Shown: positions 1 through 5,761 of the stretch, in pieces
How the letters are laid out: the number at the start of each line of letters is the position of its first letter
Numbering within the stretch: position 1 is the first letter of the stretch
Source of the DNA: an uncultured Bacteroidota bacterium
GTDB lineage: Bacteria; Bacteroidota; Bacteroidia; Bacteroidales; VadinHA17
Length of the DNA: 64,000 nt
Assembly (NCBI GenBank): GCA_903824785.1
Contig: CAIJYD010000111.1
Location: 1-64,000, forward strand
Direction of reading: 5' to 3'
Translations under genes and position numbers: made by a program
Notes under the pieces: generated by a model
Databases searched by the model: none
Told to the model about the DNA's origin: nothing
The model's input: the letters and a program-made list of their open reading frames with translations, nothing else

Positions 1-361
1 CCCCGCACCAGCGGGGTTGTTTATTTTAATGAATTTCCGAAGAAAGTTTGCTTTCTGAAGGAAATGAGTGAAAATAAACATAACCCGACAGGGTTTGTTC
101 TGTCAATGCAAGGCTCCCCCCCGGGGATCACCGCAGGTAATCCCTCTTTCTCCGCAGAGACAGAACAACCCCGCACCAGCGGGGTTGTTTATTTTAATGA
201 ATTTCCGAAGAAAGTTTGCTTTCTGAAGGAAATGAGTGAAAATAAACATAACCCGACAGGGTTTGTTCTGTCAATGCAAGGCTCCCCCCCGGGGATCACC
301 GCAAGTAATCCCGCAAATTCACAAAGATTTAATGATCCGCACCAGCGGGGTTGTTTATTTT
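1..361. repeat. 168-bp hairpin-rich tandem repeat array, partial at window edge
   Basis: Two nearly identical units occupy 1-168 and 169-336. A third, broken copy of the unit start (the ccgcaccagcgg core) lies at 337-348. The two units agree from their first base until about 20-30 bases before their ends. Each unit is built of inverted repeats: an 11-bp perfect stem with loop acca (164-174 with 179-189), a compound hairpin at 182-254, and an inverted pair (91-104 with 159-171) that encloses 105-158. The unit length is a multiple of three, so a plus-strand frame stays open through it, but the structure argues for a DNA or RNA element rather than a protein. The array lies just past the 3' end of fabF and continues beyond the window. 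I do not recognise it as a named element. Confidence 0.85.
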
Positions 362-4099: not shown

Positions 4100-5761
4100 A
4101 TGATACTTGAAAAATATCTTAACCGGATTGAGTTTAACTCCTACGCCGACTTTAAAGAGAACTTTGAAATAAAGGTTCCTGAAAACTTCAATTTCGCCTT
4201 TGATGTGGTTGATGAGATAGCTGTTGAGACTCCTGAAAAAACAGCTATGGTCTGGTGCGATGATAAGGGGAACGAGGCTGTCTTTACTTTCGGACAAATG
4301 AAATATTACAGCGATAAGGCTGCCAATTTCTTCAGAAATGAAGGAATACGCAAAGGCGATCCTGTGATGCTTATCCTGAAAAGACATTATGAATTCTGGT
4401 TCTGTACATTAGCTTTAAATAAACTCGGAGCAATAACTATACCTGCCACACACCTGCTTACCACAAAAGATATTATTTACAGAAATAATGCAGCCGACAT
4501 TAAAATGATAGTTTGCATTTCTGATTCTACTGTAATTGAGAATATTGAGGAGTCGGAAATCAAATCGCCAACCCTGAAAACCAAAGTATTGATCGGTGAG
4601 GATCGTGAAGGCTGGCTCAACTTTACCACAGGCATGGAGAAGAGCTCAGCGGATTTTAATAGACCCGGCTTAAATGAAGCTACAGTGAACAGCGACATCA
4701 TGCTGCTCTATTTTACTTCAGGGACTACAGGAATGCCTAAAATGGTGAACCACGATTTCATTTACCCCCTCGGACATATTCTTACTGCAAAATACTGGCA
4801 GAATGTACAGGATGACGGACTTCATTTTACCGTAGCTGATACAGGATGGGCAAAATCGGCCTGGGGAAAGATATATGGTCAGTGGTTGGCCGGCAGTGCG
4901 GTAATGACATATAATTACGATAAGTTTGTTCCACATAACCTGATGGAAGTAATTGAAAAATACAAAGTTGTAACGTTTTGTGCTCCCCCTACCATTTACA
5001 GGTTCCTGATAAAAGAAGATCTTACAAAATATGATTTAAGCCACCTTAAGTATTGTGTTGTTGCCGGTGAACCTTTAAACCCTGAAGTATTTAAACAATT
5101 TTACGATCAGACAGGGATCAGCCTGATGGAAGGGTACGGGCAGACAGAATGTACGGTTGCTGTTGCCACATATCCCTGGATGAAGCCAAAGCCCGGTTCA
5201 ATGGGAAAACCTACACCCGGCTATAATATTGAGATTGTTGATGAGAACGGAATAAAATGTGAAGCAGGAAATGAGGGAGAAATAGTCATAAGAACCGCTG
5301 AGAGCAAACCAGTGGGAATGTTTAACGGCTATTACCGCGATGATAAACTTACTGAAAGTGTCTGGTCTGATGGAGTTTACAGAACAGGCGACATGGCCTG
5401 GTCCGACGAAGACGGCTATTTCTGGTTTGTAGGAAGGTCTGATGATGTTATAAAAAGCTCCGGCTACCGCATCGGTCCTTTTGAAGTAGAGAGTGCATTA
5501 ATGGAACATCCAGCTGTACTTGAATGTGCTATCACAGCAGTTCCCGATCCTGACCGTGGACAGATTGTCAAGGCAACCATTGTTGTATCAAAGAATTATC
5601 AACCCTCGGAAGAGCTCGCAAAAGAACTTCAGGAGCATGTTAAAAAAGTTACTGCTCCCTACAAATATCCGCGCATTGTTGAATTTGTGACCGAACTGCC
5701 AAAAACAATCAGCGGAAAGATCCGACGGGTTCAGATACGTGAAGAGAGCAAAGAAGAATAA
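4100..5761 (+). CDS. AMP-forming acyl-CoA synthetase (acetyl/medium-chain type)
   Basis: An ANL-superfamily enzyme that activates a carboxylic acid with ATP to the acyl-adenylate and then the CoA thioester. The 553-residue length is normal. The P-loop motif [11 protein letters not shown] is at 204-214. The later motifs [19 protein letters not shown] and [16 protein letters not shown] and the catalytic Lys540 in TISGKIRR are all present. The sequence resembles acyl-CoA synthetases that act on short or medium-chain acids more than long-chain FadD. It follows the XRE-cupin gene by 21 bases and converges on the amidohydrolase gene with only 7 bases between stop codons. Confidence 0.9.

Follow-up and report, generated by a model that had tools for sequence, protein, structure and literature searches.

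A gene-free, folded repeat of about 160 bp behind tRNA-Ser genes of Bacteroidota, probably a non-autonomous mobile element

The window considered here, 64,000 nucleotides long, comprises bases 1-64000 of contig C111, one of the 135 contigs in the genome, and opens on a repeat array located before fabF. Two units (1-144 and 169-312) share 99% identity at a spacing of 168 bp and are followed by a 25-bp third piece at 337-361. The tandem 168-bp repeat described in a first-pass annotation is therefore real, all the more since none of 100 shuffles of the window contains a copy of a 21-mer of the unit, even with up to 3 mismatches. As the contig edge (window base 1) cuts the repeat, the unit count is that visible on this contig. 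The terminal 127 bp of another contig (C2, 85,198 bp) are identical to window positions 139-265, a match equalled nowhere else in the genome, from which we infer an assembly overlap. On C2, the array is preceded by a tRNA-Ser(TGA) gene called by ARAGORN, whose final 17 nt plus the next base, AATCCCTCTTTCTCCGCA, are found again at window 139-156. Together with the overlap, this recurrence places the start of the array one base past tRNA-Ser(TGA), which is its host gene, and indicates that the junction between units carries the 3' end of this tRNA. Each 168-bp unit carries this end; the last unit in the window stops at AATCCC, without a tRNA tail. The HU gene lies upstream in 34 of 41 other fetched tRNA-Ser(TGA) loci, as on C2, and fabF follows tRNA-Ser(TGA) within the fetched flank in none of these 41. 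In the same genome, a run of about 17 G sits beside half an element on contig C5 (L220, about 190-215), possibly a misassembly or a truncated copy.

All parts of the array are described here on the plus strand. Unit 1 (1-144) lacks its first bases, cut off by the contig start but present in the C2 sequence, ends in ...GCAGGTAATCCC and scores 135.3 bits with R1, a covariance model built from four sequences of the same genome and its relatives, the window unit among them. It is joined to unit 2 by AATCCCTCTTTCTCCGCA (139-156), an att-like direct repeat identical to the tRNA 3' end on C2. Unit 2 (157-312, 144.4 bits), one of the four building sequences of R1, is a complete element body, folding into a four-way junction followed by a right-end hairpin. 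The junction is closed by an outer stem whose 5' arm (159-168) pairs with a 3' arm at 263-272, as judged from the fold, complementarity and covariation of 13 of 13 consensus outer pairs. It encloses H1 (169-184; CCCCGC-ACCA-GCGGGG, then a T-rich tract; covariation helix 2), the long compound hairpin H2 (186-248), detected as an inverted repeat and corresponding to covariation helices 3-5, with an apical core CCGAAGAAAGTTTGCTTTCTGAAGG that is a variant of the family core, and the small hairpin H3 (250-263), the weakest consensus helix with 72-75% of cells paired. The right-end hairpin (292-312; GGGATCACC...GTAATCCC; covariation helix 8) resembles the T-arm of a tRNA. The broken third copy (313-361), assigned from the repeat family and its sequence, retains a remnant of H1 and its T-tract and has no tRNA tail.

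The folding energy of positions 149-324 is -68.5 kcal/mol, against -39.6 +/- 3.9 for shuffles (z -7.5), and single copies from other loci (L024, L025, L029) do not all adopt the four-way junction when folded alone. The stems first noted at 164-174/179-189, 182-186/250-254, 187-195/239-247, 201-206/228-233 and 209-214/219-224 are all perfectly complementary; they had been taken to compete with one another, together with a pair (91-104/159-171) thought to bridge neighbouring units. However, the outer stem, H1, H2 and H3 coexist in the consensus four-way junction and thus do not exclude one another (it is only in its 11-bp form that H1 runs into H2), and the supposed bridge is the outer stem of the unit viewed across the repeat, made needless by the pairing of 159-168 with 263-272 in the same unit.

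A terminator scan returned nine terminator-like sites against 0.6 in shuffles, with H1 and its T-rich tract on the tRNA strand and H3 on the opposite strand, where the T-rich tract that follows it makes it terminator-like for the convergent fabF; the element is thus predicted to read as a terminator in both directions. A promoter-like TTGACA-18-TATGTT is present on the minus strand of each unit (window 245-274 and 77-106; 2 against 0.4 expected), as a match to consensus. The element holds no conserved frame that could represent an integrase gene of its own. A repeat protein encoded by a 56-residue frame, which the first reading had kept as an alternative, was rejected: elements are 133-197 nt long, only 41 of 87 have lengths that are multiples of three, and in 70 of 87 all three forward frames hold a stop.

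Beyond this array, R1 matches 59 of 62 genomes of the same genus at E <=0.01, with 1-10 matches each, counts that include reverse-strand echoes of the palindrome; one genome negative in this search (G007) nevertheless carries a 67.6-bit copy in L151. Among 31 inspected copies (the best 30 and one more), a tRNA called by ARAGORN ends at the element in 27, which is tRNA-Ser in 27/27, with all four anticodons represented; three of the remaining four, which have no tRNA call, show a tRNA-like tail. Conversely, among 150 tRNA-Ser 3' ends chosen by an exact 3'-end pattern, the listed portion of a longer set, 103 bear an R1 element, in 64 cases exactly one base past CCGC. The other 47 comprise loci with remnants too diverged for R1, loci cut by contig ends (three of them with less than 100 nt of contig remaining), and plain ones. 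In two genomes (L024:1259-1366 and L029/L031), elements are preceded by a tRNA-Ser-like sequence with the T-arm GGTTCAAGAGCC and no ARAGORN call, perhaps a pseudo-tRNA or else a tRNA of atypical form.

Copies within a genome resemble each other according to the tRNA they follow. Across 70 aligned elements, pairs from one genome that both lie behind TGA genes, or both behind non-TGA genes, have a mean similarity of 0.696 (19 pairs), a value reached in 0 of 300 shuffles of genome labels, whereas mixed pairs (TGA versus non-TGA, 25 pairs) have 0.568, reached in 49 of 300 and close to the background of 0.57. One genome (G083), with a value of 0.94, departs from this split, and some non-TGA tails differ from one another. 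Such a split fits movement by a tyrosine integrase and makes transposition of the type that leaves target-site duplications less likely; gene conversion could also yield it, just as the near-universal presence in the genus could alternatively reflect vertical descent with conversion.

How do loci with and without the element differ? All-against-all comparison of the 150 tRNA-Ser loci provided filled and empty orthologues at three of them: a TGA locus (L074 empty, L075 filled, the latter with an extra right-end copy), a GGA locus (L121 and L137, an orthologous empty/filled pair) and a CGA locus (L136 contrasted with L122, L126 and L129, with an assembly gap in the tRNA of L126). Both flanks are alignable in the three comparisons, at roughly 71-87% identity. 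The filled locus exceeds the empty one by one element plus a second 17-bp tRNA end, running from AATCCC (T-loop and T-stem) to CCGC, after which the downstream sequence of the empty locus resumes. A tRNA end stays on the left of the element and the displaced copy is found on its right, so that insertion is precise at these three tRNA-Ser loci, with the tRNA 3' end kept and an attL/attR-like direct repeat of it. Since the difference amounts to the element and a 17-bp repeat, strand exchange is placed somewhere within these 17 bp, and no more finely. More broadly, of 94 testable elements, 20 still have a displaced copy of their host's own tail next to them, matching at 9 or more of 11 positions, against 5 of 4600 control positions; that it is seen in only 20 of the 94 counts against the mobile-element reading given below. 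In other comparisons (L170/L144 and L142/L172), a single site contains nested or further units.

A direct repeat extending from the T-loop to the 3' end is the signature of tyrosine integrases at tRNA genes, and favours an integrase type of movement. We consider it probable that the 168-bp unit represents a mobile element, non-coding and non-autonomous, some 160 bp in length, with the 3' end of tRNA-Ser genes as its target, and that an integrase acting in trans recombines it. The two units of the window would then be tandem copies at tRNA-Ser(TGA), for which repeated integration, or unequal recombination between repeats, whether via the tails or via AATCCC, would each yield such an array. A simpler account, comparable to the tyrT repeats of Escherichia coli discussed below, restricts the history to a local tandem duplication of the tRNA 3' end and its trailer through AATCCC microhomology. 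The 99% identity of the units over 144 positions, the junction carrying the tRNA tail, and the last unit devoid of this tail fit a duplication through AATCCC, but single copies scattered over other tRNA-Ser genes and other genomes are left unexplained; these refute duplication as a full account, which makes it very improbable, while the second copy may have arisen in this way.

Relatives occur outside the genus. Under stricter filters than those of the genus search, 10 of 117 genomes in an order-level sample and 4 of 117 other genomes in a phylum-level sample match at E <=1e-4. In 15 of 18 such loci, a tRNA or tmRNA (Ser, Val, Arg, Pro, Cys, Lys, tmRNA) ends at the element; the others are a reverse-strand match just behind tRNA-Ala (L390), a locus without a tRNA call (L388) and a later unit (L392) of the array of L389. 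Three tandem units with a spacing of 158 lie behind tRNA-Val in G088. A scan of the GTDB collection with a pattern of the H2 core returned 101 stretches, mostly Bacteroidota by record title among the 80 of 101 loci listed, and 59 of the 82 matches in these listed loci immediately follow a tRNA or tmRNA (Ser 48, tmRNA 4, Gly 2, and Met, Arg, Val, Ala and Tyr one each); the elements directly behind tmRNA (ssrA) are those of L255, L272, L285 and L288. Beyond the genus, relatives thus stand behind nine further tRNA isotypes and tmRNA.

In several of these relatives, the right-end hairpin tracks the host tRNA, ending in ..AATCCA behind Val (L373), ..AATCCG behind Cys, ..AATCCT behind Pro and ..AATCCCAG behind Lys. 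Behind one tmRNA (L272), the right end matches the host tail, the displaced tmRNA end is kept, and a further hairpin lies beyond. In L232 (Val) and L293 (Tyr), this hairpin departs from the T-stem of its host, which counts against the mobile-element reading. Thirteen of the 23 H2-core matches that do not follow a tRNA or tmRNA are Lachnospiraceae-type records (L226, L235, L237, L238, L248, L250, L253, L264, L276, L281, L296, L297 and L298); 0 of these 13 follow a tRNA, and three are near tRNA-Phe on the other strand. L226 has an Rfam match to Clostridiales-1 (RF01699) of 98.5 bits across the core, hinting at a wider superfamily. L289, which also bears an element behind tRNA-Ser, contains an Rfam Whalefall-1 match just above gathering at 4222-4275.

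The fold is strongly conserved among copies. Double changes affect 47 of 55 pairs in a 36-sequence alignment, and in an 87-sequence alignment 55 of 55 consensus pairs covary and 93.1% of cells pair, falling to 52% or less when partners are slid. Both alignments, A4 and A5 (the latter made of genus loci plus eight loci of the GTDB pattern scan), were fitted to R1 and hence lean towards the model. Pairing nevertheless departs from what is expected of a structured RNA, in which wobble-tolerant covariation should place G:U well above A:C. In the elements, G:U makes up 2.5% of standard pairs, the ratio of G:U to A:C is 1.6, and double outnumber single changes by 1156 to 78; the corresponding values are 8.6%, 12 and 270 to 140 for 30 RNase P genes of the same genus, the sole control family for wobble pairs and one less diverged than the elements (0.81 versus 0.57 identity), tRNA being unusable in this respect as ARAGORN draws standard pairs only. 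Because a G:U pair corresponds to an A:C mismatch on the opposite strand, the near-balance of both suggests that what is maintained is pairing at the DNA level or on the two strands alike. The constraint thus looks to act at one of these levels, and the fold may work as DNA, in the form of a cruciform or a folded single strand.

Similar pairing statistics could, however, arise from template-switch correction of quasi-palindromes, which would keep the arms complementary and turn covariation into a mutation bias devoid of function. This alternative, a rival to folding at the DNA level and not to mobility, predicts both the 1156 double against 78 single changes and the near-balance of G:U and A:C, but loops and the right-end hairpin are conserved in sequence, the outer stem spans about 95 nt, and the fold persists in more distant genomes, so that we regard it as unlikely.

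In place of a mobile element, these sequences might represent a vertically inherited trailer RNA of tRNA-Ser, or a bidirectional terminator, with gene conversion between loci seeded in tRNA 3' ends, as terminator-like hairpins on both strands, near-universality in the genus and within-genome homogenisation between non-TGA loci would suggest. Such an origin is difficult to reconcile with exact empty sites, with a 17-bp direct repeat past which filled and empty loci have their downstream sequence in common, with the scarcity of wobble pairs (G:U barely above A:C) and with the recurrence of the same fold behind other tRNAs and tmRNA, and we hold it to be rather unlikely, if the least so of the alternatives to a mobile element. 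As for the first-pass annotation, its proposal of a structured element, perhaps a non-autonomous mobile repeat, is borne out by the genus-wide copies found with the covariance model it had called for, by compensatory changes in all 55 pairs and by the orthologous empty and filled sites; its other proposal, a multi-unit ncRNA with mutually exclusive hairpins, was not supported, the element being a single unit with compatible stems and with wobble statistics unlike those of RNase P from the same genus.

Which enzyme could mobilize an element devoid of genes? Seven loci that lack an R1 element (three TGA, three GGA and one CGA) encode tyrosine integrases of one and the same family, at a distance of about 230-260 nt from the tRNA-Ser gene that precedes them, and so does tRNA-Ser(GGA) in the genome of the window; in L137, an integrase of this family lies behind an element. 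The family is found in 8 of 47 loci without an element and 1 of 103 with one (Fisher p 4e-4), or in 7 of 47 and 1 of 103 once the weak case L153 is set aside, counts that are small, and not independent as loci of one isoacceptor may be orthologous. The integrase that was scanned has an Arm-DNA-bind_5 domain. The copy in the genome of the window (L331:757-1983, contig C50) lies about 230 nt behind tRNA-Ser(GGA) and is followed by a 379-aa frame that recurs in L121 and L131. The link between integrase family and element lies in the tRNA-Ser sites that they share, and on this basis the family is the strongest candidate to mobilize the element in trans.

In two of six longer stretches followed behind these integrases, an island lies between the tRNA and a displaced tRNA tail with an element remnant after it, at 32.2 kb in G010 (a 29.1-bit R1 match over the region) and at 73.4 kb in G075, the latter recognised by eye, with no R1 match at E 0.1 and an extra, chance-like tail at 17.4 kb; no far tail was found in the other four stretches followed. 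Besides the integrase, nine island genes were scanned, and most of their products are transport or surface proteins. It also counts against the mobile-element reading that, in its left half, the right-end core of the element (GGATCACC..GGT) differs from the tRNA (GGTTCG), whereas the right ends of islands retain GGTTC. Element ends that would frame an integrase as an element of its own were not found, and larger autonomous copies were sought in insertions of about 1 kb beside tRNA-Ser (L123, L185, L212, L194 and L151), which by eye hold ordinary-looking genes. Phage and plasmid records gave no blastn match, and IMG/VR no match to two exact patterns. In the genome of the window, contig C128, phage-like by its excisionase and DnaD-like helicase loader, closes with the 3' tail of a tRNA-Ser and an element (L221, 3150-3399), probably the right end of an integrated island; this element has a deletion in H2 in common with that at tRNA-Ser(CGA) on C135.

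REP hairpins have a conserved apical core with internal loops, and H2 has a sequence-conserved apical core of this kind, which raises the alternative that a Y1 (HUH) transposase recognises this hairpin and mobilizes the element in the manner of REP/RAYT systems. The genome of the window does contain one clear Y1_Tnp gene and one match below cut-off; however, neither locus is flanked by R1 palindromes, R1 giving no match at E up to 1 at any of the 15 integrase and Y1 loci of this genome, and insertion leaves an integrase-like 17-bp repeat of the tRNA end. Movement by such a transposase is accordingly quite improbable.

For an integrase-mobilized element, the following scenario can be proposed. 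A tyrosine integrase, most likely of the tRNA-Ser-linked family, would act in trans on an element folded as DNA, either as a cruciform or as a single strand, and recombination would use its T-arm-like right end together with the tRNA 3' end. With one terminator-like hairpin per strand and the tRNA end kept, the host tRNA retains both an intact end and a terminator-like hairpin.

Several known systems share some of these features. The 178-bp repeats of Escherichia coli tyrT (RtT RNA) are tandem units behind a tRNA gene, each with a tRNA 3' end; unlike them, the present element recurs behind many tRNA genes in many genomes and has empty sites, and an Rfam search revealed no RtT match in the window. 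Integrons use folded DNA hairpins (attC) as recombination sites and form arrays of units, as seen here, but the present units have no cargo gene and target the end of tRNA genes. MITEs and REP elements are short, non-coding, palindromic and multi-copy, again as here; in contrast to them, this element targets tRNA and tmRNA genes, lacks inverted repeats flush with both ends, which are a tRNA tail and a T-arm-like hairpin, and leaves a repeat of 17 bp instead of a short target duplication. Mycobacteriophage Ms6 integrates at tRNA T-loops, in the stretch also used by the element, and needs identity of a 26-base core (PMC1762012). Integrative elements and phages that have a tRNA T-loop for attB likewise leave the tRNA gene whole, with a direct repeat that spans from this loop to the 3' end; the present element differs in being about 160 bp long, gene-free and strongly folded, with a right-end core of which only half matches the tRNA.

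No Rfam family reached gathering in the window, where at E up to 10 only below-gathering matches appear, such as Chlorobi-1 (RF01696; 20.1 bits, and 24.6 in L036, for a gathering of 50), and Clostridiales-1 (RF01699) does not match the window even at E 10. Both are listed by Weinberg 2010 (PMC2864571). Fremin and Bhatt 2021 report palindromic candidates with terminator stems predicted in 230 of 250, several of them common in Bacteroidetes (PMC8040213), and relatives of the element may be among them. A published description of such an element was not found in the open literature searched, and a miniature tRNA-targeting mobile element of this kind seemingly has not been described before.

The broadest reading is put forward tentatively, as a possibility that we would not yet favour: throughout Bacteroidota, tRNA-linked tyrosine integrases may recombine cargo-free cassettes, folded as single strands or cruciforms, into double-stranded tRNA and tmRNA gene 3' ends in an integron-like manner. 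The cassettes would parasitise the att sites of islands and bring their own two-way terminator, allowing the host tRNA to survive, which would make them a new class of mobile DNA. Transfer RNA genes are classic docking sites of phages and islands, and here a gene-free resident of about 160 bp occupies them in nearly every sampled genome of a genus. The element may explain why contigs of its own genome end at copies, and may be miscounted from short reads. Its empty sites are clear, its range of targets is narrow and there are enzymes to consider as candidates, and if its fold acts as DNA, it would constitute a second natural folded-DNA recombination system beside integrons.
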